IMG/VR virus record: IMGVR_UViG_3300020433_000013
Span: 1-45,299 of that record
Reading direction: 5' to 3' (one strand)
Source of the DNA: a virus
DNA length: 45,299 bases
Below, piece after piece: positions 1,367 to 45,297 of the stretch. Below the pieces are notes generated by a model. It did no database searches. It was not told the origin of the DNA and worked only from the letters and a program-made list of their open reading frames with translations. The position numbers and the translations under genes are program-made. The stretch's first letter is position 1; every line of letters starts with the position of its first letter.

Positions 1367-3379
1367 TTATTCCTCTTCTTTTAACAAATTGTCATCTATA
1401 AGTATATCGTAGTCTTGGTCATTTGATTCTCTAAGTAACTTATTGCTACTAGCACCTATGTTTAACTTACTATCCATTGATTCTAAATCTTTTGACATTC
1501 TATAAGAAATCTGTTTATCAATATGATTGCTTATAACAGGACTTTGCGGCAATATCCCATCCATTTGCAAGAGACTATTTGCAGTGGGTGTTTTTATATT
1601 TTCAATATTTGTTGCACCGCTAAATAAGTCTGTTTTTTGAATAAATGTTCCTTTTATAGGATTTTCGTATCCTAACTTTACGTTTAAAGAATTTACGCCG
1701 GAAGATTTTACTTTAGAAGAAGCTTTAATAGGTCGATTTATTTTACCTTCTTTTTCGTCTTTATCTTTTTTAATATCGTCATCTTCATCAATTAATTCAT
1801 CGTATTGATTTAACTCTTCTTCTGACATTAAATTTCCTTTTTTAATCTCTCCAGAGAATAAATCTCCTAAACCCTCACCAGATTCTTCTGCTCCACCAAC
1901 AGGAGGTCCACCGAATGAGTCATCTTCGCCGGCATCAGGATTATTATTTTCGTCGCCAAACGCAAGAGATTCTGTAGGTGGTAACTGAACAGCCTCAAGT
2001 CTCATTTCTCTTATTTTATCTTTCTTTCTGCCTTTTTCAATTCTTTCTATTTCATCATCGTTTAATTCTAAAATATTTTTTCTAATCCACTCTCTATCAA
2101 CCATACCTTCAGGAGCTGAGCTTGCTATATCAAACTTAGATCTAATTAATTCTAGTTTTTGTTGTTGCGCAATACTTGAAGGATTACTTAATTCAAGTTT
2201 AAAGTCTAACAGGCTTTCATCTGTATAACCGTGTGTATATAAATGAATCATTGCAATTTTATTTAATTCAGAAATAATTGTCTTTTGAATTCTTTGAATT
2301 GTGCGACTAAATCTTATATCTTCTTGAGCTAATGTTGCTTTTGCACCAATGTCTTCATCATAACCTAAATAAGCCTTAGGTATTTTTAACGCAGCAAAAA
2401 GTTTTTTCTGAATGTATTCAACATCTTCAATAGCTGTAGTGTTCGAACCTCCTGCTAAGGTATCAATTCTTGTTCCACTTTCACCACCTCTTACCGGTAA
2501 AAAATAATCTTCATCTACTGAAAGGGGGTTATATCTTAAATCTACCTGCCCTGTGTTTTTATCAATCACTGCATTTCTTTTTAAAGAAGACTGTGCTTGT
2601 TCAAGATAATCTGCAATATTTTCAGGAGGAATATTGCCAACGTCAATATAAAAAACACGTCTTTCAGGTGATCTAATAACTCTATAGACTAGCATTGCAT
2701 CTTCAATAAGAATTAATTGTCTCCAAACTCTTCTTGCACCTTCAAGGACAGAAGATCCATATGGAAGAAAAGCATCATTTCCTAATAATCGTAAATGAGA
2801 AATTTGCCAGTTTTCTAAAACTTTGTTTCCTTGAGTTATCCATCTAAATCTAACAGCACCTGGATCTTGAGGATCAAAACCTTCTTCTCTTTCTATTTCA
2901 GCAATAGGAATAGGAAAAACATTAATCACACCATATTCTGGATGAATATCGTTAAATAAGAAAAAATCTCCATATTTGCATAAGTTTCTAACCCACATGA
3001 CTAAATTAAAGTCAATATTCAAAGTATCATAAAATAATTCTGACAAAATTTGTTTAATTTTACCGTTTTCAGAGTTAATATGCAAGACTGTTCCTAATAC
3101 ATCTGGAGAAACACATTCTTCTGAATAAATATCTAATGCGGAAGATATTTCAGGTGTTGCTTCCATTTCTGAAAAATCACTATATCTAGCCATTCTATCA
3201 TAAGATCCGTATGCACTTAATGTTGAGTTATATACATCACTATGATTTTTCTTGAAAACCTCCAGAGAAGATTTAGAATATGTGGTATTTTTTAAGTGTT
3301 TTATCTTTCTACGTACAACAGGACCTGATCTAAATAGTCCTGTTAGTTTTACAAAAAGATTATCATTTTTTTTTGCCAT
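1367..3379 (-). CDS. 20: Portal protein, T4 gp20-like
   Basis: The portal forms the dodecameric ring at the unique capsid vertex through which terminase pumps DNA and to which the neck attaches. The protein is 670 residues, against about 524 in T4. It contains the gp20-type segments YSDFSEMEATPEISSALDIY, the central RSPERRVFYIDVGN, and KIPKAYLGYDEDIGAKATL followed by a helical stem region. The first ~450 residues are the portal core. The remaining ~200 form an acidic, low-complexity Gly/Asp/Glu/Lys-rich tail (roughly residues 470-550) and then a Ser/Asn/Lys-rich end, which accounts for the extra length. The start has an AGGA site about 10 bases upstream, inside the end of the terminase gene, 4 bases away. 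Order terminase-portal-protease is as in T4. Confidence in the family is high; the role of the C-terminal extension is unknown. Confidence 0.95.
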   Translation of the reverse strand: MAKKNDNLFVKLTGLFRSGPVVRRKIKHLKNTTYSKSSLEVFKKNHSDVYNSTLSAYGSYDRMARYSDFSEMEATPEISSALDIYSEECVSPDVLGTVLHINSENGKIKQILSELFYDTLNIDFNLVMWVRNLCKYGDFFLFNDIHPEYGVINVFPIPIAEIEREEGFDPQDPGAVRFRWITQGNKVLENWQISHLRLLGNDAFLPYGSSVLEGARRVWRQLILIEDAMLVYRVIRSPERRVFYIDVGNIPPENIADYLEQAQSSLKRNAVIDKNTGQVDLRYNPLSVDEDYFLPVRGGESGTRIDTLAGGSNTTAIEDVEYIQKKLFAALKIPKAYLGYDEDIGAKATLAQEDIRFSRTIQRIQKTIISELNKIAMIHLYTHGYTDESLLDFKLELSNPSSIAQQQKLELIRSKFDIASSAPEGMVDREWIRKNILELNDDEIERIEKGRKKDKIREMRLEAVQLPPTESLAFGDENNNPDAGEDDSFGGPPVGGAEESGEGLGDLFSGEIKKGNLMSEEELNQYDELIDEDDDIKKDKDEKEGKINRPIKASSKVKSSGVNSLNVKLGYENPIKGTFIQKTDLFSGATNIENIKTPTANSLLQMDGILPQSPVISNHIDKQISYRMSKDLESMDSKLNIGASSNKLLRESNDQDYDILIDDNLLKEEE

Positions 3380-3383
3380 TATT

Positions 3384-5015
3384 TTATTTTCCTATTAACC
3401 AACTTAAATCACCTAGAGGATTTTTGGGGTTTGTTCCATTTTTTTTACCTGAAAATGATCTATCAGGCATATAAACAGGTAAAAAAGGATTTACTGTTTT
3501 TTCACTACTATTATAGAAAGGAGAAATGGAAGTTTTATCTATATTTGTTTTATTTAATTCCATACCTTTGAGTATTGCATCAGCTTGTTGTATTTGCGAA
3601 ACATTATATGTATCAGAGTTATTGTCAGCTAACCAACAACCAATTGCTAAAGACATTATTAAATCATCATTATAGCCTTTCATAGCAGTAATTTTTTTAC
3701 CATTCCAGACAAATGTTTTTAATTCTGAATAAAGTCTTTGTGAGTAAGTTTTAATACGACCATTACGTAAAGTTTCTTCAAAATTTGCAAGTATTTTATC
3801 TCTACTTTCTTTGCTTGTGGTAAAACCGGCCTTTGCAATATTTTGACCTTCACCATAAAGATACTTATATTTTTCTTTTTCAGAAGAAAAGTAAATGTTT
3901 TTATATGCTAAGTCTGCAAGTTTAACTAGCATAGTATAACCATAAGCATTATTTTCTGGGCAAATCATTGCTGTATTAAATCTTTTTGCAACATCATAAA
4001 CAAGTATAGCAAATTGGTCTGGAGGAATTTTTCCTTTATATTCACTAGCAATACTCATATTTGACGTATTAATAACATGAAAAGCTGAATAGTCTCCGCT
4101 ATCTCCTCTTGCAATATCAGCTGAAAGTATGTATTTTACTCCCTCTATAGGGTATTCCCAATACCAGACATTATTTTCAGGCCCGCTTTTTTCCATAGGT
4201 TGTTTGGTTAAAATTCTTATATTTTCTAAAATATCATTTGTAAGAAAAGTATCACCAGATGAAGCAAAATCACAAAGTAGCTCTTGTGCAACCTGCTTTT
4301 GAGACATATTCTTGATTTCTTTTTGAAACCATTCGTCATCTCTTTCTGGGTGAACATCCCACATAAGTTTAATAGGATTAAATTCGTTTTCTTTTCTATC
4401 AGCTTTAGTATATATCTCATGATATTGACCACCTACACCGTTAGGAGTAGATAAAAGAATAGCACGACCACCTGTTGATAAAGTAGGATATAGACCCATC
4501 CATAATTCGTCAAAATTTCTTACAAAAGCTGCCTCGTCAACAATCAAAAGAGAAAGCGCTTCCGAACGTCCTGCATCTTCTGAAGTTGGAACTGCTTTTA
4601 TTTGAGAACCATTTGAAAATTCAACTTGCTGTTTGTTGTTAGCTGTAATCATTGGTACCAATAACCAGTTTGGCATAGATTTTATATAAGTTTTAACTTT
4701 TCTTATAAAGTTTTGTGCAACCGCTAGTTTAGTAGCAATAATTAAAATATTTTTTTCTTTATAAAAACAAGCTTGCCAAACTGCATATGCAGCAACTAAA
4801 GTCGAAAGTCCTAATTGTCTTGATTTCAAAACAATATTAAATCTATGATTATTAAACTCTGTAACACAGTCATCTTGAAAATCGTAAGTTTTAAAAGGAA
4901 TTAGACCTTTTAAAGGATGTTGAATTTTTAGATATCTGTTCATAAAATATATAGGATCTTTTCCGCATTTTATAATTTCAGAAACTTGACTATGTTTAGA
5001 CTTTAAAGATGCCAT
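3384..5015 (-). CDS. 17: Terminase large subunit (packaging ATPase/nuclease), T4 gp17-like
   Basis: This is the motor that powers DNA translocation into the prohead and cuts concatemers. The N-terminal ATPase domain has a Walker A variant LKSRQLGLST (residues 63-72), Walker B LLIVDE (156-161) and a coupling motif LLSTPNG (187-193). The C-terminal RNase H-like nuclease has SADIARGDSGDYSAF with D300 and D308, E354 in PENN, and D450/D451 in YNDDLIMSLA. These are all the expected acidic residues. The length of 543 is a little shorter than T4 gp17 (610). It follows the 124-residue gene by 4 bases and precedes portal by 4 bases. No small subunit is recognised with certainty; the 124-residue proteins at 5020-5394 and 40652-41026 are candidates. 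The protein is complete and looks functional. Confidence 0.97.
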   Translation of the reverse strand: MASLKSKHSQVSEIIKCGKDPIYFMNRYLKIQHPLKGLIPFKTYDFQDDCVTEFNNHRFNIVLKSRQLGLSTLVAAYAVWQACFYKEKNILIIATKLAVAQNFIRKVKTYIKSMPNWLLVPMITANNKQQVEFSNGSQIKAVPTSEDAGRSEALSLLIVDEAAFVRNFDELWMGLYPTLSTGGRAILLSTPNGVGGQYHEIYTKADRKENEFNPIKLMWDVHPERDDEWFQKEIKNMSQKQVAQELLCDFASSGDTFLTNDILENIRILTKQPMEKSGPENNVWYWEYPIEGVKYILSADIARGDSGDYSAFHVINTSNMSIASEYKGKIPPDQFAILVYDVAKRFNTAMICPENNAYGYTMLVKLADLAYKNIYFSSEKEKYKYLYGEGQNIAKAGFTTSKESRDKILANFEETLRNGRIKTYSQRLYSELKTFVWNGKKITAMKGYNDDLIMSLAIGCWLADNNSDTYNVSQIQQADAILKGMELNKTNIDKTSISPFYNSSEKTVNPFLPVYMPDRSFSGKKNGTNPKNPLGDLSWLIGK

Positions 5016-5457: not shown

Positions 5458-5706
5458 TGGCCTCCATCCTTTTTCCCACTTTTCTTTATTAATAAAATAA
5501 AAATCCAAGTAACAAGTTTGGCAAACATCATTTTCTTTAACTGAGTCTATATCTTCAACATTATTTAAAAGCTTTTTACAGCAAGGACAGTCTAAAGAAA
5601 TTGTTTTAGAACTAACAGGTCTAACAAATTTATATTCTTTCCAAAAACAAACTTCAGTATTTTCATCTATTTTTTTCCAATTTTTTTGATCATTTATATT
5701 CAACAT
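5449..5706 (-). CDS. Small zinc-ribbon protein
   Basis: An 85-residue protein with two Cys pairs, C40/C43 in DCPCCKK and C62/C65 in VCQTC, about 19 residues apart. This is the geometry of a zinc ribbon. The N-terminus is Trp/Lys-rich (NDQKNWKKIDENTEVCFWKE) and the C-terminus ends EKWEKGWRPYK. No catalytic motif is visible. The start overlaps the end of the SbcD-SbcC gene by 17 bases in another frame, suggesting coupled translation and a link to recombination, but a nucleic-acid-binding or adapter role is only inferred. A purine-rich AAAGG lies about 10 bases before the ATG. The stop codon overlaps the candidate late promoter that follows. Function unknown. Confidence 0.7.
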   Translation of the reverse strand: MLNINDQKNWKKIDENTEVCFWKEYKFVRPVSSKTISLDCPCCKKLLNNVEDIDSVKENDVCQTCYLDFYFINKEKWEKGWRPYK

Positions 5707-8700
5707 AAGAGTCTTTGCCTTTTATTGTAACTTCTATATTTTTATCAACGATATCTTTAATCGAGTCTATGTGTGATATTATAAGAATAGTTTTAAAATA
5801 TTTCTTTAAACTTTTTAATAATCTTGCACATGCTTCAATATTTGTATCGTCTAATGCGCCAAAACCTTCATCAATGATAAAAATATCAGACTTTGGTAAA
5901 GAAGAAATGTTTGTTAAAGCAACTCTAATTGCTATTGATGCCATCATTTTTTCCATACCACTCGCACACTCAATAATTCTAATTGAATCACCATAATCTA
6001 TATAAACATTGAGATTATTATTATTTTCATCATCTAGGATTTTTATTTTAAAAGACGTTACACCTGTAAGTATTGCATCTATTTCTTTATTTATTTTTGG
6101 TAAAAAAGAAGAAATTAACATTGTTGGAATACCTTTTTTTGAAACTGCATGAGAATACAAATCATAAATTTTCCATTCTTCAATAATCTTGTTATAATTT
6201 TCTTCTTCTTTTACAAGTAATAATAAGTTATTTTCTAATTGAAATATTTCTTTATTAGTTTTATTAATATCTGATTCGATATCAAATATTTTATTTTGTA
6301 CACTATTTAAATCTGTTTTTAAAGAATTAAGCTTGTCTATATAAACAATATCGTCATAACTTTTAAGTTCATCTATGATCAAACAAGTTTTATTCTTTTT
6401 AAATTTTAAATCTTCTAATAACTGTGTCTTTCTTTTTATTTTATCCTCATTTGAGTCAATATCTATTTTAGACTTATATTCTTTATTAAGTACATCGTTA
6501 TATTTTTCAATTTTATTACTAAGTTCATTCTTTTCTAATTTATTAACAACTGATTGTATTTCGTATATAGATGTTTCTATGTTCTTTATTTTATCATCAA
6601 TTTCTGGAATGTCATTTTTTGACTCATAAGCATTATTAATAAATTTACAGTTTAAAAATTTATCTCCGCAAGGAACTTGATCTAATATTTTTATTTCTTC
6701 TTTTTTAGAAATTAGTTGGCTATTTAAGAATTTCTTCTTATTTTTATAATCTTTTAGTTCAAAAGTAAGATTTTCAAGTTTTTTCTTTTCTTCCTTAAGA
6801 ATTTCAATAGGAAAACTTTTTTTAAAATCTTTAATTTTTTGAAGCTTTTCTTTCAAAGAAATATTTGTATTATTTAAATTATCTATTTCTTCCTGACTTT
6901 GATTTATCTTATCAGTTATGTATTTTAACTCTTTATTGGCAGAAAATTGTGTATGTCCTGAAGGGTGATTTTTTATATTTGATTCACATTCTTTGAGTTC
7001 TAATCTAACAGCTAATTCTTTTTCTCTTAATTTTTGAAGATTTTCGCCTAAAGACTTTAACTGGCCTTCTTTATCTTTGTTGTCTGATAAAACTTCTGAT
7101 TTAAGAGATGACCAATTTTTCTCTTTTGTATTTTTTATTTTATTTTTAAGAACAACATATTTTTCTCTACTTTGCTTATAAAGTTCTTCATATATGTCTA
7201 AATTTAAAAACTTTGTTAAAACTGATTTTCTTGCAGAAGATTTTTCATTAATAAAAGTATTCATTTCACCTTGTGAAGCAAAAGAAGTGTAAAGAAAGTC
7301 TTCTGATGTTCCAATTAAATTTCTTAGAATTTTTTCTGTTTCTCTTCTTTGTTCTTCTGATTCATCAGAGCAAGACGTTGTTTCTATTAAACTTAAATTT
7401 GTATTTGCTGATATTTTATTTTTTGTTGATGTTTTCTTTATTGTACTTCTAATAACATCATAATTTTTTGTCCCAATAGAGATATTAACTTTAGACTTAC
7501 AATAACCTTTTCTTATATTTATAATATCTTGATTTTTAACAGATCCTCTGTCTGTTGTATTGAATAGTGTATACATGAGAGTACCTGGAATAGAAGATTT
7601 TCCAGCTCTATTATTACCAAATAAACCTATTACACCGTTTAAATTATTAAAATTAATAAAGTTATTTTTGCCGTAAGAAAATGTATTATCAAATTCCATA
7701 TTATTAATAGACCATTTTTGACCAAAAGTATCTGTTAAGTCTTTAGGGATTTCATCTAAGCTTTCTTCAAAAACTTTTGTTACTTTTTTAATAACTTCTT
7801 TATCAACATTTACAAAAAAGTCATTAAATATCTCTTCTCTATCACTACTTTTTCTTATGTCAATTGATTTAATATTGTCTGAAATTGTTGGTGAATTTAC
7901 TTCTTCTTTGTTAACAATATTTTGTAAAACTATTTCATGAGCTTTTTTATCATTTTTTAAATAGTGATAAAGAATTTTAATTTCTGATTGCGTAATATTT
8001 TCAGAAGTTCTAATTCTAAATCTAGAACCTGATTTAACTTTTTCACAAAATAAAATAGTATTCTCTAAATTACCTTTCCAGTCAACAGTTACAAAGGGAT
8101 GAGGATTTTTAACAGAAATAAATTTACTTTTATAGTCAAATCTATTTTCTATTTCCCAGATCAAAAAACCTTTAACTATATCTTCACCATAATTTTGCTG
8201 TATTGTTGACCCAGGATATGCAATACGATTATCAGAATCTAAATATTGTCTTTTGTGTATATCACCTAAAAAGCCAAAATCAAAGTCGTCAAAAAAGTCT
8301 AAACCAACTTCTCCTTCTAGTTCCCAGTCTGTGTCTGTCTTAGAATTCATTACAGCGCCATGAAAACAAGCAATGTTAATTTTATTTTCTTCTGGCTTTA
8401 CTTTAGACCAATTTTTTTGATCAAAGCAAGAAAAAACACACCAATTAAAATTGTTTAAACCTATTGGATATACACCACTATTCTTATATAGCTTTATATT
8501 TGGATTATTTATTGCTTTTACAATAGGACTAATTGCATCTTGTCTATTTTCATTTAATATAAGACCGTCATGATTTCCTAGAATTACATGTGTTGGTGCT
8601 ATATTAGCAAGAGAATTAAACCACCAATTTAAATTTTCAATTATTTCTGGTGATATACCTTGAGTTTTTGAGTGAACAATATCGCCACCAATAAATATAA

Positions 8701-8818
8701 TGTCAGGACTTTCTTCTTTTAGTTTATCAAATAAATTCTGAAATACTTCTTTATATTCTTTATGTCTTTTTAAGCTGCGCCAATGAACGTCAGATATGTG
8801 TGCAAATTTAACCGACAT
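5690..8818 (-). CDS. Fused SbcD-SbcC (Mre11-Rad50) recombination nuclease/ATPase
   Basis: A single 1042-residue chain combines two subunits that T4 encodes separately as gp47 and gp46. Residues 1-~300 are a metallophosphoesterase nuclease with D10/H12 in SDVHWR, D46 in GGDIVH, N82/H83 in GNHD, H153 in FHGA and H188 in GDIHKR. The SMC-like ATPase follows: Walker A GNNRAGKSS from residue 401, long coiled coils, a hook CGDKFLNC (C717 and C724), the signature ECASGMEKMM, and Walker B with D-loop DIFIIDEGFGALD at 978-990. Such complexes process double-strand ends and branched DNA, and T4 46/47 drive recombination-dependent replication. The start has AGGA six bases upstream, merging with the primase stop codon. 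All catalytic motifs are intact. The hook is C-x6-C, not the usual C-x2-C. The fusion is read directly as one open frame. Confidence 0.95.
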   Translation of the reverse strand: MSVKFAHISDVHWRSLKRHKEYKEVFQNLFDKLKEESPDIIFIGGDIVHSKTQGISPEIIENLNWWFNSLANIAPTHVILGNHDGLILNENRQDAISPIVKAINNPNIKLYKNSGVYPIGLNNFNWCVFSCFDQKNWSKVKPEENKINIACFHGAVMNSKTDTDWELEGEVGLDFFDDFDFGFLGDIHKRQYLDSDNRIAYPGSTIQQNYGEDIVKGFLIWEIENRFDYKSKFISVKNPHPFVTVDWKGNLENTILFCEKVKSGSRFRIRTSENITQSEIKILYHYLKNDKKAHEIVLQNIVNKEEVNSPTISDNIKSIDIRKSSDREEIFNDFFVNVDKEVIKKVTKVFEESLDEIPKDLTDTFGQKWSINNMEFDNTFSYGKNNFINFNNLNGVIGLFGNNRAGKSSIPGTLMYTLFNTTDRGSVKNQDIINIRKGYCKSKVNISIGTKNYDVIRSTIKKTSTKNKISANTNLSLIETTSCSDESEEQRRETEKILRNLIGTSEDFLYTSFASQGEMNTFINEKSSARKSVLTKFLNLDIYEELYKQSREKYVVLKNKIKNTKEKNWSSLKSEVLSDNKDKEGQLKSLGENLQKLREKELAVRLELKECESNIKNHPSGHTQFSANKELKYITDKINQSQEEIDNLNNTNISLKEKLQKIKDFKKSFPIEILKEEKKKLENLTFELKDYKNKKKFLNSQLISKKEEIKILDQVPCGDKFLNCKFINNAYESKNDIPEIDDKIKNIETSIYEIQSVVNKLEKNELSNKIEKYNDVLNKEYKSKIDIDSNEDKIKRKTQLLEDLKFKKNKTCLIIDELKSYDDIVYIDKLNSLKTDLNSVQNKIFDIESDINKTNKEIFQLENNLLLLVKEEENYNKIIEEWKIYDLYSHAVSKKGIPTMLISSFLPKINKEIDAILTGVTSFKIKILDDENNNNLNVYIDYGDSIRIIECASGMEKMMASIAIRVALTNISSLPKSDIFIIDEGFGALDDTNIEACARLLKSLKKYFKTILIISHIDSIKDIVDKNIEVTIKGKDSYVEYK

Positions 8819-8826
8819 TATTTTTC

Positions 8827-9825
8827 CTATAATTGTTTAATTTTATTAAGTAATACATCTTCATTACTAAATTCTTTTGCTTCATCAAGAATTTTATTAA
8901 AATATTGTGAAGTCATGTCTCCAACATCAAAGTTACCTCTTGTATCTAGAATATTAACTTTAACGTCATAATAAGATAACAGTTTAGCAATTTTAACACA
9001 TTTATAATAAGCATCAGCATCTAAAGCTAAGTTAACTGTTGTTTTATTTTTTACAATTTCTTGAAATAACTTCATATCTTCTGTTAAAGAAGAACCTAAA
9101 AGGCATGTAGCATTATCATTTGTTTTCAATAAATCTAAAGGACCTTCTACTAAAGTAAGAGGCAAATTCCAGTCAATATTAATTTCATTAAAAATAATAT
9201 TTTTCTTTGGAATATTAGCATTTTTATATTTGTATCCACAATTAGTATCAACGTCTATTTTTCTTGCTGTATAATAATTTATGTTTCCATCTTTATCGAG
9301 TGATGGTATTATTAAGCATCTAGAAAACTCAGGATCCAAGGAATAACCAAGTCTTAAAAACCATATTTTATGTTTATTAATACCTCTTTTAATAGCATAT
9401 TTAAAAACATCTCTTATATCTGGATTATTTGAATTAAAAGCATTTGCCAAAAGCTTAAAGCCGTTAGGAATTTCAACCTTTTCTTTAATCTCTAAATCAA
9501 CATCTAAAGTACTGTCACCAAATAAACTTTTTATATCTATTTCAATATTAGATGATTTTTTGTTATTTTTAAATACTTTTTTTGACTTTTCCGATAAGTT
9601 TTTGTCAATTTTAGATAATAAATAAGGAACATTAGAACCTTTCTTATCACATACCCAACAATGATAAAAAGATTTTTCTAAATGAATTACTAGTTTAAGT
9701 TTTTTCTTGTTAGGATGCTGACAAAATGGGCACCATATTGAAAGATTTACTCCGTCTTTAGATAATAATGTATTTCTAATATTTGTTTCTAAAAAGTCTA
9801 GTCTATTTTCTAATATTTGATTCAT
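8827..9825 (-). CDS. 61: DNA primase, DnaG/T4 gp61-like
   Basis: This protein synthesises RNA primers for lagging-strand replication. The 332 residues are close to T4 gp61 (342). The N-terminal zinc-binding domain shows CPFC (C32, C35) and CWVC (C56, C59) flanking a Lys-rich strand, a four-Cys version of the CHC2 finger. The TOPRIM domain has the metal-binding Glu E227 in LVEGPLD and the acidic pair D269/D271 in LALDADAYYK. There is no helicase domain, so a separate gp41-like helicase would be needed; none is in the window. The start overlaps the resolvase gene by 23 bases and the stop merges with the SbcD-SbcC ribosome site, so the three genes are probably translated from one message. Assignment to the primase family is firm. 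Confidence 0.92.
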   Translation of the reverse strand: MNQILENRLDFLETNIRNTLLSKDGVNLSIWCPFCQHPNKKKLKLVIHLEKSFYHCWVCDKKGSNVPYLLSKIDKNLSEKSKKVFKNNKKSSNIEIDIKSLFGDSTLDVDLEIKEKVEIPNGFKLLANAFNSNNPDIRDVFKYAIKRGINKHKIWFLRLGYSLDPEFSRCLIIPSLDKDGNINYYTARKIDVDTNCGYKYKNANIPKKNIIFNEINIDWNLPLTLVEGPLDLLKTNDNATCLLGSSLTEDMKLFQEIVKNKTTVNLALDADAYYKCVKIAKLLSYYDVKVNILDTRGNFDVGDMTSQYFNKILDEAKEFSNEDVLLNKIKQL

Positions 9826-10375
9826 AATATTTTAATGCCTTGCAAATTACATATGCGTCAGACATATCATAACAAGATTCATCAAATTTTACAAGTCCTT
9901 TGTTTGGTCCACTTTTTAAAGTTTTTTCAGGCCAGATAAATTCTATTTCTTTTCTAACCCATTCAAATACTTGTTCTTTTGTATTTTTAGTCTTATCTTT
10001 AGTGATTTTAATTGACAAAGATTTTCTAGCTGAATTTACATTTAAATATAAAGGTTTTACATTAAATATATCATATACTAGATAAGATACTATTCCGTTA
10101 AATCTACTAAGTTGTGAAAGAGTTTTTGCTGAAGAAAATCCTTTACTGAAAGATTGAAATGCTTCTTCTATAGATATTTTAACTTCTTCTTCAAAGTTAT
10201 ATCTATTATATAATTCTTCTAGTATATTTTTAGTATATATAGATTTCTCAAATATACATTTTATTTTTTTTAAATTAATATTTTGTAAATCTACCAAGTT
10301 ATAGTTATTATCTAAAAAACATATTCCAATAATTGAGGTAGATATATCTAAACCAATATATTTTATTTTTGTCAT
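9803..10375 (-). CDS. RuvC-like Holliday junction resolvase (RNase H fold)
   Basis: A 190-residue nuclease-fold protein. It begins with a strand carrying D10 in IGLDISTSIIG, followed by E70/E71 in SIEEAF and a C-terminal acidic pair D170/D173 in YDMSDAYVICKAL. This D-E-D-D layout is that of RuvC-type resolvases, which cut four-way junctions symmetrically. T4 uses the unrelated endonuclease VII (gp49) for debranching before packaging, and several large T4-like phages carry a RuvC-like enzyme instead. It starts with a TAATG overlap on the stop of the upstream 997-residue structural gene and overlaps the primase by 23 bases at its end. Position in a cassette with primase and SbcCD, shortly before terminase, fits concatemer resolution. 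Other RNase H-like nucleases share the fold, so strict substrate specificity is inferred. Confidence 0.85.
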   Translation of the reverse strand: MTKIKYIGLDISTSIIGICFLDNNYNLVDLQNINLKKIKCIFEKSIYTKNILEELYNRYNFEEEVKISIEEAFQSFSKGFSSAKTLSQLSRFNGIVSYLVYDIFNVKPLYLNVNSARKSLSIKITKDKTKNTKEQVFEWVRKEIEFIWPEKTLKSGPNKGLVKFDESCYDMSDAYVICKALKYYESNIRK

Positions 10376-30997: not shown

Positions 30998-33900
30998 TTA
31001 CATCTTTCTTTTGTCTATTACACTAATTCTAAAATCTTCAGGTTGCCTATAGTTTTTTGTGTTTCTTAAATTTCTATAATAACTATAAGTATTTTCTTCG
31101 TTAAAAACAGGGATTAAACTATTGCTCGATTTATACTGATATTTGTTTCTTTCTAGAGAATGTGATTCATAGACAAAGTTAAAGCCTTTATACCTAATTT
31201 TAGAAGGCACACATTCGTATAATAGCTCTTCCAGAATATTATCAAAATATTTATACATTTGATAAATGTCTGGAATATTGATTTCTTTTTCTAATCTATT
31301 AAAATAATTTTCTCTAAAATTATATAAGTCTTTATAAGAGTCTTCATAAACATTAGATATTTGTGATATTTTTTCACTAAATTCTTTGTTGATATTAATA
31401 ATTTTTAATATATCTTGATTTATAAAATTAACTAAACTAAAATCTATACTTAAACGATTGTCTTTTGAATACAAGTAATCAGGAGAAACTCTAGGAGTAT
31501 TTGATACGTTTAAATTATTATATTGCTTTTTAAATATATCACTTTCAAAATCATTAATGTATATATGATTATTACTCCTTGGAAAATCAATTTCACTATT
31601 TTGAGATAGAATTTCAATTTTTCTTACAGCAAAAGGATTAAAGCTATTTATATCTTCTCCTTGATGTAAATTTATTATATTTGTTTGAATTTTTTCTACA
31701 AAAGAATTAATAGTATAAGTATCGTTATTATTTTTAATATAACTGCTTAAGTCTTTATAAATATCCATATTTAAAATAACATTTTCTATTCCTGAGTTAG
31801 TAGAAATAGTATTTATAGACTTACATTTTAAAAATATTTCTTCTTCACTTAAGGATGTATTATATACTCTTAAATTAGAAATTTTTCCTTGAAATTCAGT
31901 TTCATATGACATATTACTTAAATAGCCTTGATCTTGAGCAGCCTCATAACTATTGTATTTTCCTATAGATAAAACCTGACCTATCTGTGATTTTGGAGTA
32001 ATATCTTTTTTAGTTTCAAAATAATTAGATTTAACTTCTTTTGAATAGAAAGTATTTGCAATACCTGATATTGTTAATTTGTATTTATAATATTTGTTAT
32101 TCTGTACGATATTATCAATTAGTTCTCTGTTTAAATTAATATAATTTATATTACCATTTAAAAAATGTATATTTTTTATTTCAATTACATCAATGTTATC
32201 ATTACTATTAATATCATTTATATAAACTTTTATATTACCATATTCATTTTTATTATTTAATCTTTCAAAAACAATATTTATATGTGGTCTAGAAAAATTA
32301 CTTCCTAAAATATTATTATCTATTCTTAAAAGAGATTGTTTATTATTATATACTTCCTTTTTAAATGAATCAAAGCTATAAAGACACTCAATAGACCACT
32401 CTTCAGATACGTTAAAATTATTAATTGTTGATGTTTGCAATAAAAGTCTATTTTTTGCTGACGGATTACTTGTTGAGCTATCTGCTGATGCGTCTTCAAA
32501 TAAATTTTTTCCACAACCAAAGTCGATTTCTTTATGGCTTATTTTTTTTGGATACAAATTATTATCGATATTAAATTTATTTTGACCATTAAATTCTTTA
32601 ATAGATATAAATCTTGATGACTCTAAACCAAAAGAATTAAAAACAGAATTAATACTAGACAGTGTTCCTTTTGTCATTAAATAATCACGAGAGTTAATTA
32701 AAAATCTTTGCCATAAATTATTTTGAATTTGTCTAATAGAAATATCAGATATAACTTCTTCATGTGTTAAATTTTTATTATTTAATTTTTCTAAAATAGG
32801 ATAAGGAAGAATTTCTCTAAAATCAAAACCTGATAGTTTTAATGCCATAGGTAGCAATATTCCATCAAGCTTTTTATTATTATTTAGCGTATCATAATTA
32901 ACATCAATTACCTTAGAAATAGAATCAATATATAACTTAAATTGATCAAAAAACCTTGCCCATATTACAAATAAATTAACCATTTTTTGGTTTGCTTTTG
33001 ATTTAGTTTTAAACAGGTTTGCAGAAGAATTAATTTTTTCTTCTGTAACATATGTTTCGTCAATATTATCAAAGTCTGAACCTTCAACGAACAAGTTTTT
33101 TGGTAAAAGTTTCCAAAAAGAGTTAGGATTGTTTAAATCGTATCTTTTAGCATCAGCAATAATATTATCTTGAATGTTTATTGCCTCTTCATTGCTAGGA
33201 AAAAGAACAGGATTGTTATCTAGCTTTTCATATTTTAAAGGTGATTTGATATTACTGTAAATACCTCGCATTGAAGAAATATTACTTTGAGATAAAGAAC
33301 TCATTCCATGCAGTTTATTACCAGAATAATCCAAAATTAAAGTATTATTAGTAAAATCACCACTTGGTTCATTAAATCTATAGTAAAGTCTTAATGTTTC
33401 TTTTGAAGTAATGTTTTCATTTTTTTCTTTTGCAATAATTTCACGACTTCTTGATTCGTTAGAAAAAACTCTAAATTCATCTAAAAGTCCTATAAAATGA
33501 AAATCGTTATTTGCGTCTGAAAGATAAGAAAAGCTACTATTTGTTACGTAATTACCATTACCAATAGTACATTTTACAATGTTAAAGCTATTGTCAAATT
33601 TTATAATGTCATTATCGCTATTTATTGTTTTAACAGGTATGCTGTTTATATAAATTTGACTTGTTGATCCTTTGTTTTCATCTAATGAGGATTCAAATGT
33701 AATATTAACGTGGTTCCATTCATTTAATTTTAAATAGTCACTAGAATTTTTAATAAAACAATGTTTTACTTTATCTTCATTTTTAATTAAAAAGCATATG
33801 TTGCATTTATTATTTGCGAAGTCTTTTAAGAATAATGTATATCCTTTATTATTGCTATATTTTTGAAATATAATTTGATTATCATTGTCAGTAGATGTTG

Positions 33901-34444
33901 GATGTATCCAAAAATCAAAACTAAAGTTAAAATTATTATGTAAATTTAGAAGTCCTGTTTTGATTTGCTTTTTATAATCGTTTAATAAACTTCCGTTACG
34001 ATCAATAATGTCTATCTGATAAGTTCCATCAAATCTTAAATATCCTATGTTCTTTAAAAAAACTTTTTGTAGTATATACTTTGTGTATCCATCTAAGTTA
34101 TTTAAATAATTTATCAAATCATTTTTTGTTCCGTCATATGGAAAATCATTAAATATTTTTTTAAAAGCATAGTTTGTTTTTTCTATAGCAGAGTCAAAAA
34201 AAACATGTTCTTCAAAATTACTAAAATCAACACTTTCAAGTTGTTGTGTAGAAAAAAAACCAGAATAATCATCAAATCTTTCAAAGTATTCTGAGACATT
34301 TTCGTCATACAAATCTAAAAAAGATTTAAGCTCTATATTTTGTTCATTTTTAGATGAAGCTATATTAGATGATTTTATTGAATTTTTAAAAGAATTATAA
34401 GATTTAGTATTATTAAATGACACATTTTTATTTTTATTTAACAT
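30998..34444 (-). CDS. Mosaic baseplate/fibre protein with two LamG-like domains
   Basis: An 1148-residue mosaic. Residues ~170-380 form a clear LamG/concanavalin fold: FSFDFWIHPT, LNEWNHVNITFES, SQIYINSIPVKTI, FIGLLDEFRVFSNESRSREI and LRLYYRFNEPSGD. Residues ~530-610 contain the segment LWQRFLINSRDYLMTKGT and then SINSVFNSFGLE, a Lys-Gly-Thr pattern I associate with tail-protein-I-like regions of large phage baseplate proteins. A second, weaker LamG-like region spans ~680-870 and closes with ISNLRVYNTSLSEEEI. The C-terminus has ELLYECVPSKIRYKGFNFVY, then ESHSLERNKYQYK, another recurring ending. The gene follows the baseplate wedge genes, as expected for a protein linking baseplate and fibres. 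The glycan-binding role of the LamG parts is inferred. Ribosome site AAGG. Confidence 0.85.
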   Translation of the reverse strand: MLNKNKNVSFNNTKSYNSFKNSIKSSNIASSKNEQNIELKSFLDLYDENVSEYFERFDDYSGFFSTQQLESVDFSNFEEHVFFDSAIEKTNYAFKKIFNDFPYDGTKNDLINYLNNLDGYTKYILQKVFLKNIGYLRFDGTYQIDIIDRNGSLLNDYKKQIKTGLLNLHNNFNFSFDFWIHPTSTDNDNQIIFQKYSNNKGYTLFLKDFANNKCNICFLIKNEDKVKHCFIKNSSDYLKLNEWNHVNITFESSLDENKGSTSQIYINSIPVKTINSDNDIIKFDNSFNIVKCTIGNGNYVTNSSFSYLSDANNDFHFIGLLDEFRVFSNESRSREIIAKEKNENITSKETLRLYYRFNEPSGDFTNNTLILDYSGNKLHGMSSLSQSNISSMRGIYSNIKSPLKYEKLDNNPVLFPSNEEAINIQDNIIADAKRYDLNNPNSFWKLLPKNLFVEGSDFDNIDETYVTEEKINSSANLFKTKSKANQKMVNLFVIWARFFDQFKLYIDSISKVIDVNYDTLNNNKKLDGILLPMALKLSGFDFREILPYPILEKLNNKNLTHEEVISDISIRQIQNNLWQRFLINSRDYLMTKGTLSSINSVFNSFGLESSRFISIKEFNGQNKFNIDNNLYPKKISHKEIDFGCGKNLFEDASADSSTSNPSAKNRLLLQTSTINNFNVSEEWSIECLYSFDSFKKEVYNNKQSLLRIDNNILGSNFSRPHINIVFERLNNKNEYGNIKVYINDINSNDNIDVIEIKNIHFLNGNINYINLNRELIDNIVQNNKYYKYKLTISGIANTFYSKEVKSNYFETKKDITPKSQIGQVLSIGKYNSYEAAQDQGYLSNMSYETEFQGKISNLRVYNTSLSEEEIFLKCKSINTISTNSGIENVILNMDIYKDLSSYIKNNNDTYTINSFVEKIQTNIINLHQGEDINSFNPFAVRKIEILSQNSEIDFPRSNNHIYINDFESDIFKKQYNNLNVSNTPRVSPDYLYSKDNRLSIDFSLVNFINQDILKIININKEFSEKISQISNVYEDSYKDLYNFRENYFNRLEKEINIPDIYQMYKYFDNILEELLYECVPSKIRYKGFNFVYESHSLERNKYQYKSSNSLIPVFNEENTYSYYRNLRNTKNYRQPEDFRISVIDKRKM

Positions 34445-42048: not shown

Positions 42049-43248
42049 TTAAAAATTACTTTCAAAAACTTCTTTGTAATTATTTAATATAATATCTATA
42101 TTATAGTTTTGTTTAATTATTATTTGTCTTTTATCAGCTATTTTCTTATAAAAATCAATATTTTCAAAAAAAACTTGTAGTTTATTTATCATAGACTCTA
42201 TTTTAAAATTTGCCCAATAAGGATTTGAATCTTTATCTACAAAATTAAAATCTTGAGTAAATATTTCTTTTTCATATTCAATTTGTAAAAAATCATTATC
42301 TAAAAATTCTTTGTAAGCTGAATAGTTTGTTGCTATAATAGGTAAACCGCATGAAGCTGCTTCTATAAAAGGTAATCCCCAACCTTCTGCTCTCGTTCCT
42401 GACAGCATACAAGTTACTTTTTTACAAGAATACAATCCTTTTAATTCTGTTATTGACAAAGAACCAAAAATTAAACATATTTTTTCTAAGTTTTGATCCT
42501 TTAAAATACTTGTAAGCTCATCTTTTAAATAATTAAATGCACTATTAGTAAATTTTCCTGTATTTACTTTTAAAATAATTCCTATGTTTTTGTCTTTGAC
42601 AAAGTCTAAAGCTGTCTTTATTGTTTTAATAATATTTTTTCTATCTGATTTTTGATTATCACTTGTAATTTGTCCAATTATTAGTATGTTTTTATCATAT
42701 TTTAAATCTTTTAAAAAATTAAAATTTTCTTTGCATTTATCAAAATCTTTATAATACCATTCATTTAATACTTCAATTTTAGTTTCTAAATTTAAATTAT
42801 TTATTCTAGAAGTTTTATAAAATGCATCCCTAGAAAATATTGAAGGAACTATTACTAAGTCCATATTATTACAATATTCTATCCATGTCTTTTTAACAAT
42901 ATCAGCTTCAAATCCTGCTGTAATTCCTATGTTTTTAAGTGCTATATTTTTCCATTCATTAGGCAATAATACTTGGTAAGATACATCTGCTTTTTCTTTG
43001 CCTAACTTTTTTTGGCAATATTTAATTATGTTTTTAATAGTTTCGTCTTTGTCATCTAGGATCCAAGAAGTTTTACCCCACAAAGTTGGTTGAACATAGA
43101 GATCAATATCGTTTCTCCTAAAAAGATATTCAAATATTTGTCTTGTATGAACGCCATAACCAGAATTTGTTAAAATCGGACCTTTTAATATAACTTTTTT
43201 ATTTATTTTAGATATACAACTTTTGCTTTCGTCTTTTGTTTTTGACAT
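42049..43248 (-). CDS. Glycosyltransferase, GT-B fold, GT4 family (second of two)
   Basis: A 399-residue sugar transferase. The N-terminal Rossmann domain opens with KVILKGPILTNSGYGVHTRQ (a GT4 acceptor-side loop). The C-terminal nucleotide-sugar domain starts at ILIIGQIT and contains SGTRAEGWGLPFIEAASCGL, giving the E-x7-E motif and the GLPI(I)AT step typical of retaining GT4 enzymes. There is no signal peptide or membrane helix, so it is cytoplasmic. Substrate and donor are unknown; virion protein, modified DNA base or host surface glycan are all possible. The start at 43248 is supported by AAGGA six bases upstream and lies 46 bases inside the other glycosyltransferase gene. It probably acts with that enzyme in a two-step glycosylation (inference from pairing). 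Confidence 0.88.
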   Translation of the reverse strand: MSKTKDESKSCISKINKKVILKGPILTNSGYGVHTRQIFEYLFRRNDIDLYVQPTLWGKTSWILDDKDETIKNIIKYCQKKLGKEKADVSYQVLLPNEWKNIALKNIGITAGFEADIVKKTWIEYCNNMDLVIVPSIFSRDAFYKTSRINNLNLETKIEVLNEWYYKDFDKCKENFNFLKDLKYDKNILIIGQITSDNQKSDRKNIIKTIKTALDFVKDKNIGIILKVNTGKFTNSAFNYLKDELTSILKDQNLEKICLIFGSLSITELKGLYSCKKVTCMLSGTRAEGWGLPFIEAASCGLPIIATNYSAYKEFLDNDFLQIEYEKEIFTQDFNFVDKDSNPYWANFKIESMINKLQVFFENIDFYKKIADKRQIIIKQNYNIDIILNNYKEVFESNF

Positions 43249-44453
43249 TTAAATTCCTTAATTGTTTTATTTAATGATTTATACCATAAGTTAATCGTAT
43301 TATCGTAGTCAAAAGCTATTTTACTATAATTTTCAACTTTCTTTGAAAGAATATCGTAGTCATCATTTTTTAGGCTTTTAATGTGTAATATAGCATCAGC
43401 TACTTTATTACAATTTACGTAATCTTCATAAATGTAAGGTATTTTTTGATTTCCTGCAATAGACTTTACGTCAGGATTTAAACCTACTCCATTTTGTGTA
43501 TTGTCTCTAAAATCAATAACCTGCCTGTATAATCCGCCTGTTTTTGTTGCTATAATTGGTGTTCCAGTCATCATTGACTCAAGTGTAGTTAAACCAAATC
43601 CTTCACTATAACTTATATTTAAACAAACATCTGAAATATTGTGCAGTATATTAATAAATGAAGTTTCTAATTTTTGCACGGAAAAGGAAACTGTATCTAA
43701 AATATCTAACATTATAGCAATTTCAATTAAATTTGCACCAGCTGAATCTTGAGGATCTGTATGCATTAATAATGTTACTTTTTCTCTTTCTTTTAAGCTT
43801 AGCTTATCTAAAAAATATTTCCATGAATACAAGACATCAGCAGGTCTTTTTCTCATACAATTTCTATTCATCCACAAACAGACAAAATTATCTTTTCTAT
43901 TTTCTCCTAATATTCTTGATTTTTCTTTTTTTATTTTAGATTTTTCAAGTCTATAAAAAGCATTTTTTGGAAAAGCGTGCGGGATAAAATTAGTTTTTTT
44001 TGCAAAGTTTTCTTTGCACATCTGATATGTTAAAAAAGAATGACAATTTATAGCATCAACAGATTCGTACATCCAATCATTAAATCTAGGTGTAGGTCTA
44101 TTATCCCATACATGCCACCAAAGAATAGGACATATTTGTCTTATTTCGTCTTCCATTTCAAAAAGCCAAGTAAAAAATCTTGGATCCGAAAAAATTATCA
44201 ATGCATCTGGCTTTTCATTAACTAAGATTGATCTAATAAGGTCCGGACTTCCAAAACCATCTATAGGTTTAATTAGAAAATTATCGTTAATTTTTTTAAC
44301 ATCGTAATTTTGATGCTTAATTGCAGCACCTAATTGAATAAATTTTAAATCTCCTTTTTTAAGCAAGCCTTCAATTAAAAATTTTGTTTGTACTCCTACA
44401 CCACTTGGTGAACAAGCATGGTCAGATATTATTAGTATTTTTTTCTTTTTCAT
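43203..44453 (-). CDS. Glycosyltransferase, GT-B fold, GT4 family (first of two)
   Basis: A 416-residue GT4-type transferase if it starts at MKKKKILIISDHACSPSGVG. I choose this ATG (44453) over one 42 bases upstream because it has AAAAGG four bases away and gives the canonical strand-loop start of the family, whereas the upstream Met lies inside the nuclease gene. The donor domain holds VCLWMNRNCMRKRPADVLYS, LLMHTDPQD, and SYSEGFGLTTLESMMTGTPI with E-x7-E, followed by IATKTGG. No signal peptide or membrane segment. It overlaps the second glycosyltransferase by 46 bases, so both are likely co-translated. Substrate unknown. Phage use such enzymes to modify DNA bases, capsids or host envelopes; the sequence does not discriminate. 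Confidence 0.9.
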   Translation of the reverse strand: MKKKKILIISDHACSPSGVGVQTKFLIEGLLKKGDLKFIQLGAAIKHQNYDVKKINDNFLIKPIDGFGSPDLIRSILVNEKPDALIIFSDPRFFTWLFEMEDEIRQICPILWWHVWDNRPTPRFNDWMYESVDAINCHSFLTYQMCKENFAKKTNFIPHAFPKNAFYRLEKSKIKKEKSRILGENRKDNFVCLWMNRNCMRKRPADVLYSWKYFLDKLSLKEREKVTLLMHTDPQDSAGANLIEIAIMLDILDTVSFSVQKLETSFINILHNISDVCLNISYSEGFGLTTLESMMTGTPIIATKTGGLYRQVIDFRDNTQNGVGLNPDVKSIAGNQKIPYIYEDYVNCNKVADAILHIKSLKNDDYDILSKKVENYSKIAFDYDNTINLWYKSLNKTIKEFKCQKQKTKAKVVYLK

Positions 44454-44457
44454 AAAA

Positions 44458-44463
44458 CCTTTT
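44458..44463 (-). promoter_or_regulatory. Ribosome binding site deciding the glycosyltransferase start
   Basis: AAAAGG read on the minus strand, four bases before the ATG at 44453, in the 10-base gap after the nuclease stop codon. It favours this start over the in-frame Met 42 bases upstream within the nuclease gene. Confidence 0.6.
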
Positions 44464-45297
44464 TTACTTACAATGGTTAGTATTTTTAAATTCACAAAAC
44501 ATACAAGAATCTCTGTTTTTTAAAAAAAACTTTTTCTCAACTGTTTTTATCATGCTTCTAATCATTTTTTGAGATTTTTCTAAATTTTTAGGCCCACTTG
44601 AAACTTTAATTAACTGACAAGATTTACCTACAGTTTTTACTTTTTTTAGTAAAACAAAACCACATTGGACGTCTTTCATCTGTATATTGTTTTTAATTGC
44701 CCAGTAGTTTTTATAAAGAATTACTTGTGCTTGAGTGTTAAAGTCTCTTTGTTTATCTAAAGACCAACCTCTTCCACTTGAAGTTTTCCAGTCTAATATC
44801 CAATACTTAAATTTATTTTTATTTGGCACTTTAATAATACAGTCAATGTAACCTTTAAATTTTGTTTGCATGTTTTCAATGTTTTCATATAGAGGCTCTT
44901 CAGCTGAAACATATTCCCATCCTGGGAAAGTACTATCTAAAAATCCTGGCAAAGATTTTATACTTGTTTCTGACCACTGAATCCAGTCTTTTAACTTGTT
45001 ATGTTTGTACTTCCAGCCTTGAAGCTCTGCTTTTTGCGTTTGTAATTGAATAAAATCTTCAGAATCAAAGCCGTGTTCGTCCCATGCTAATTTAATTTTA
45101 TTTTTAGCTTCATCAATTTTAAGCATTTTTGTTTTTAAATAATGTTCACAAGCATCGTGAATTATTGTGCCATAATGTAAATGCGGGCTTTCTTCAAAAG
45201 AAGATAATTTATCAATATATAGTAATTTATGTCTCCAAGGACATTCCTTCCACTGGCGTATTTCAGAATATGAAACATGCTCTTTTAGTATAGTCAT
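44464..45297 (-). CDS. Cas4/RecB-like PD-(D/E)XK nuclease with probable 4Fe-4S cluster
   Basis: A 277-residue nuclease of the Cas4/AddB-like branch of the PD-(D/E)XK superfamily. It shows S9-Y10 then C19 in QWKECPWRHK, H47 in YGTIIHDACEHY, D152 in FKGYIDCIIK, D169-x-K171 in ILDWKTSS and the QxxxY pair Q191/Y195. C265, C268 and C276 near the C-terminus (SCMFCEFKNTNHC) with C19 would hold an iron-sulfur cluster, as in Cas4. Family members resect DNA ends or trim single strands. No adjacent cas1 or cas2 or repeat array is present, so a recombination or DNA-degradation role is preferred over CRISPR adaptation. The whole gene fits in the window; its ribosome site would lie beyond the edge. Ten bases separate it from the glycosyltransferase. 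Confidence 0.92.
   Translation of the reverse strand: MTILKEHVSYSEIRQWKECPWRHKLLYIDKLSSFEESPHLHYGTIIHDACEHYLKTKMLKIDEAKNKIKLAWDEHGFDSEDFIQLQTQKAELQGWKYKHNKLKDWIQWSETSIKSLPGFLDSTFPGWEYVSAEEPLYENIENMQTKFKGYIDCIIKVPNKNKFKYWILDWKTSSGRGWSLDKQRDFNTQAQVILYKNYWAIKNNIQMKDVQCGFVLLKKVKTVGKSCQLIKVSSGPKNLEKSQKMIRSMIKTVEKKFFLKNRDSCMFCEFKNTNHCK

Follow-up and report, generated by a model that had tools for sequence, protein, structure and literature searches.

The canonical SbcCD or Mre11-Rad50 (MR) enzyme is a 2:2, ATP-gated complex that cuts DNA ends and hairpins, in which the helix-loop-helix of Mre11 docks on the coil of Rad50. By annotation, the T4 counterparts, gp46 and gp47, are needed for recombination and for the degradation of host DNA. 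Yoshida, Claverie and Ogata (2011; PMC3175470) described single proteins that fuse Mre11 with Rad50 in Mimivirus (R555) and Bacillus phage 0305phi8-36, and also in plasmids, bacteria and eukaryotes. The same study reported that R555 has a GDxxH motif and an Asp at the position of P. furiosus His206, and that its homologues were unusually abundant in aquatic viral fractions, including scaffolds with phage primases; phages were suspected (PMC3175470).

The stretch of DNA analysed here, which we call the window, comprises one virus contig of 45,299 bases (IMG/VR record IMGVR_UViG_3300020433_000013). On its minus strand, positions 5690-8818 form a single open frame of 1042 codons, running from ATG to TGA with zero internal stops; the plus strand is stop-rich across the same interval, and every large gene of the window is carried on the minus strand. 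The original prediction of a nuclease and a complete ATPase in one frame, which had left the strand unstated, is borne out. This frame, its family matches and more than 100 fused relatives identify a fused SbcD-SbcC (Mre11-Rad50) gene. Marked by a single frame, clade-wide conservation, the domain order, conserved catalytic residues and fold matches, its product very probably belongs to the known family of Mre11/Rad50 (SbcD/SbcC) fusions, here in a tailed phage, and its likely role is end processing of the T4 gp46/47 kind.

The window fits closely with the aquatic fusion viruses of the 2011 study (PMC3175470). Like R555, its protein has the same domain order in one chain and retains the region between nuclease and ATPase, and both R555 substitutions (GDxxH and the Asp for His206) occur in it; aquatic viruses are again involved, and a phage primase adjoins the gene as on the GOS scaffolds. 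It differs in belonging to a bacteriophage and in length (1042 aa, against 1351 aa in the giant-virus protein), and its subclade has a C-x6-C hook. The top viral Foldseek matches were long Mimivirus-type DNA repair exonucleases (Tupanvirus, Catovirus, Yasminevirus and Harvfovirus; 1215-1389 aa), together with fused proteins of Tenacibaculum phages. From the fold search and the shared residues we infer common ancestry with R555. GDxxH itself was rejected as a family marker, since the split enzymes of P100 and a Bacillus phage carry GDLFH. Two proteins from isolate genomes, those of Tenacibaculum phage pT24 (HYP10_gp019, 1310 aa) and Microcystis phage Mel-JY01 (WWT39521.1), share the single chain and the motif V GDIH, but have a hook of canonical CxxC spacing, and the pT24 protein is about 270 residues longer. 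The kind of aquatic virus known in 2011 as short reads or scaffolds, and then suspected to be phages (PMC3175470), is now represented by long contigs and by relatives with isolate genomes.

Sequence profiles and a structure model place the two enzyme halves along the chain. Pfam Metallophos (PF00149) matched residues 4-177 (E=3e-13) and phrog_77 (SbcC) residues 279-1041 (E=1e-45), while Pfam AAA_23 and SbcC_Walker_B matched under their curated cut-offs only, so the ATPase call rests on the PHROG, on PDB sequence matches (to SbcC/Rad50) and on structure. An AlphaFold model built from 94 sequences had a mean pLDDT of 85 and a pTM of 0.52, at which the relative placement of domains is not readable from it; a model from 6 sequences (pLDDT 56) was discarded. 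Solved SbcD/Mre11 structures comprising nuclease and cap align to model residues 1-300 (ends 299-302) with Z about 25, the S. aureus SbcD 7dog giving Z 25.9 and rmsd 3.0 over 277 residues. Together with the Pfam match and the model secondary structure, these alignments delimit the SbcD/Mre11 metallophosphoesterase nuclease domain (residues 1-240; 8099-8818, minus strand, as for all features of the gene below) and the Mre11 capping domain (residues 241-300; 7919-8098), which is kept between the nuclease and ATPase halves. Solved SbcC/Rad50 structures align to residues 369-1042, with residue 369 matching residue 1 of the free-standing proteins, and E. coli SbcC in DNA-cutting states matches the model with Z 31.4-31.8 (6s85_D, Z 31.4). 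After a low-confidence stretch at about residues 301-323, the model has helices at 324-334, 340-355 and 359-362, a region that structural matches scarcely cover. Lying where Mre11 keeps its own, the helices of residues 324-362 (7733-7849) form, according to the model, a probable Rad50-docking helix-loop-helix, with a link of about six residues (363-368) to the ATPase. There follow the ATPase N-lobe (residues 369-540; 7199-7714), antiparallel coiled-coil arms of about 170 residues each, drawn from the model helices (residues 541-714 and 725-892; 6143-7198), and the C-lobe (residues 893-1042; 5693-6142).

Both active sites are represented in the sequence. The Rad50/SbcC motif set is complete, comprising Walker A (G401-S408; 7595-7618), the signature SGME (953-956; 5951-5962), Walker B IFIIDE (5867-5884) ending in D983-E984, the D-loop (D990) and the switch histidine (H1016); G406, K407, S408, S953, G954, E956, D983, E984, D990 and H1016 are invariant among 94 sequences. 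The nuclease motifs are D10-x-H12, GDIVH (45-49), GNHD (81-84), H153 and GDIH (185-188; 8255-8266). The last, motif V, replaces the canonical SbcD/Mre11 GHxH, which is absent from the window protein and is found in T4, E. coli, S-SKS1, P100, a Bacillus phage and other split enzymes; it reads GDIH in all 94 fused relatives, and H49 and D186 are likewise kept in 94/94. The fold could hold a weak or altered nuclease and act mainly as a structural tether of DNA ends, a reading suggested by the aspartate that stands at the Mre11 metal-ligand histidine position in every one of the 94 relatives. Aspartate is, however, also able to bind metal, and the remaining ligands D10, H12, D46, N82, H153 and H188 are kept in all the sequences covering each site, a conservation that argues for catalysis; we consider a mainly structural role improbable. 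The change from His to Asp in motif V, along with the altered hook described below, could alter metal use or dimerisation.

To establish how common the fusion is, we chose the clade by the neighbouring terminase, independently of the fused gene. Nuclease and C-terminal ATPase lobe lie in one frame in 37 of 79 terminase-picked loci, and every locus holding both gene ends is fused (37/37); two closed frames were found in 0 of the 79, the rest being cut by a contig end or short of the gene. A wider, protein-based scan used nuclease-half patterns, which favour the GDIH type and make no selection for fusion. Among the matches listed it kept 80 loci, of which 73 have nuclease through C-lobe in one fused gene, while seven run off the contig, fused as far as present. 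Closed ATPase-only frames in two contigs (L046 and L082) start 39 and 175 bases from the contig end and were set aside as contig-end artefacts. Many phages, e.g., Bacillus phage 043JT007, have sbcD and sbcC side by side or close together, and an error of assembly or sequencing could in principle have merged such a pair into one frame. This reading is vanishingly improbable, as more than 100 contigs, drawn from many samples, and the Mel-JY01 isolate genome all show the same continuous frame; such independent contigs rule out an assembly join.

The single-chain form is therefore the rule in the window's clade, and the two-subunit layout is absent from the window and from all complete clade members. 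The expectation that the fusion is unusual, against which a clade survey finding fused forms to be the rule had been named as the decisive result, is not supported, and proteins of this kind were published in 2011 (PMC3175470). Twelve fused IMG/VR contigs of 95-267 kb carry one SbcCD copy each and no second, and a 735-kb phage has an additional SbcC. The form is rare among isolate phages, where we found it in Mel-JY01 and pT24 and where PMC3175470 adds Bacillus phage 0305phi8-36, and a plasmid search gave weak matches to the C-lobe only. The statement that T4 and bacteria use two chains is correct, as seen in T4, Bacillus and Synechococcus phages and E. coli. T4 gp47/gp46 and bacterial SbcD/SbcC share the two enzyme halves and folds, and presumably the end processing, with the window protein, but they have two genes, a GHxH motif V and a CxxC hook, and lie outside the GDIH clade. 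In trees, the GDIH sequences group as a single clade with UFBoot 94 (nuclease half) and 99 (ATPase half); the fused protein lies in a clade separate from gp46/47, which the comparison with T4 obscures. The original observation is thus correct, the protein is of a known kind and standard in its clade, and the extra interest is modest, coming from the hook variant and from fission in relatives.

The neighbourhood bears on function. The fused gene starts 8 bases past the end of a DNA primase gene (8827-9825), upstream of which lies a RuvC-like resolvase gene (9803-10375), and its TGA overlaps the next small ORF; downstream are a T4-type terminase large subunit (3384-5015), the marker used for clade choice, and a portal (1367-3379), all on the minus strand and all with PHROG and Pfam matches. 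No tRNAs were found in a search, and an intron search of the window and the contigs L007 and L010 gave no Rfam match at the gathering threshold. SMC-like complexes are reported to work in immunity against foreign DNA (PMC10586767), and the protein might by that precedent be an anti-host or defence-like SMC nuclease directed at competing DNA instead of serving the phage's own replication. This is very unlikely, given that the gene lies among replication and packaging genes (primase, RuvC-like, terminase), that the whole clade has it and that a search of the long fused IMG/VR contigs found no other SbcCD copy.

By analogy with T4 gp46/47, the likely role is instead end processing for recombination-dependent replication. 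Each chain would comprise a two-metal nuclease, a cap and Rad50-docking helices, followed by an ABC ATPase head with its coiled coil, and two chains would dimerise via nuclease, heads and hook into a 2:2-equivalent complex. ATP-driven closure of the heads on a DNA end or hairpin would position the nuclease, which, like gp46/gp47, would trim ends so that recombination-dependent replication starts and would clear blocked or host ends. The fusion may then be a permanent form of the docking that split enzymes reach through the helix-loop-helix. Of the proposal that fusion forces a 1:1 ratio and tethers nuclease to ATPase, the tether survives insofar as the link becomes covalent; the ratio adds little, because the split complex is already 2:2 and its Mre11 is already attached to the Rad50 coil through the helix-loop-helix.

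The canonical CxxC zinc hook is not present at the coil apex of the window protein. The sequence at the predicted apex is VPCGDKFLNCKFI, with the hook PCGDKFLNCKF (6641-6673) containing C717-x6-C724, a putative zinc hook. As the hook is not CxxC, we place the protein in the fusion family, with a hook of variant type, and not among canonical Rad50 proteins. C-x6-C spacing occurs in 38 of 39 subclade sequences, the 39th carrying an insertion, whereas CxxC is found in 55 sister fused sequences and in T4, P100, S-SKS1, a Bacillus phage and E. coli. Support for the window's hook subclade is 98 in the ATPase half and 30 in the nuclease half. A DNA-pattern scan recovered the C-x6-C hook in 62 fused genes, 15 genes cut by a contig end and 1 fragment, and in 0 separate SbcC genes. 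A literature search covering few subscription papers found no description of a C-x6-C zinc hook. Three contigs in MAGs labelled archaeon, Flavobacteriales and Methylococcaceae (L171-L173) also carry fused genes with this hook, and are possibly phage contigs binned with hosts.

Relatives show the fusion broken again. In a 484-kb phage (LR756508; L010:5944-10169), the fused gene is interrupted just past GDIHKRQ by an ORF of 305 aa that encodes a TnsA-like endonuclease domain. This phage nests within the fused tree, its closest IMG/VR relatives (L183 and L186) being fused, and the split resembles that of nrdA by mobE in phage Aeh1, a gene split by a homing endonuclease (PMC2988022). A second case is a large aquatic phage lineage of 71 contigs, in which a GDIH-type SbcD (about 262 aa) and an SbcC (about 791 aa) are separate genes (L007:5995-6783 and L007:8829-11213, with L187-L266). 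The head of this SbcC aligns with the latter half of the cap in the fused protein plus the helix-loop-helix (hhalign 96.5%, E 7.5e-10), and the SbcD seems to end in the cap's first half. By tree topology alone, one fission or two fusions may both fit; a split that falls within a domain points to fission in an ancestor that was fused, which is probably the origin of this lineage, rather than to an original two-gene state. Considered as one joint claim, it is quite possible, although we lean slightly against it, that the subclade's change from CxxC to C-x6-C made a different intermolecular metal joint and that the wider family undid the fusion at least twice at non-ancestral places, namely through an endonuclease gene placed within the nuclease domain and, in the large phage lineage, within the capping domain, so that one domain is completed by two chains. 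The natural single-chain SbcCD, its split relatives and the two hook types form a comparison set for tethering and hook geometry in Mre11-Rad50. Separately, the SbcC gene of Listeria phage P100 (L178:3968-6999) is apparently split in two; the product of 5566-6999 is without the N-terminal ATPase lobe, and a 126-aa 'exonuclease' ORF lies just upstream.

Elsewhere in the window, two group 1 glycosyltransferase genes lie in tandem and overlap (42049-44495), adjoined by a PD-(D/E)XK exonuclease gene (44464-45297). Positions 13380-36348 encode a series of huge proteins (up to 1966 aa), most without a PHROG or Pfam match and probably virion proteins; the product of 30998-34444 has a concanavalin-like domain.
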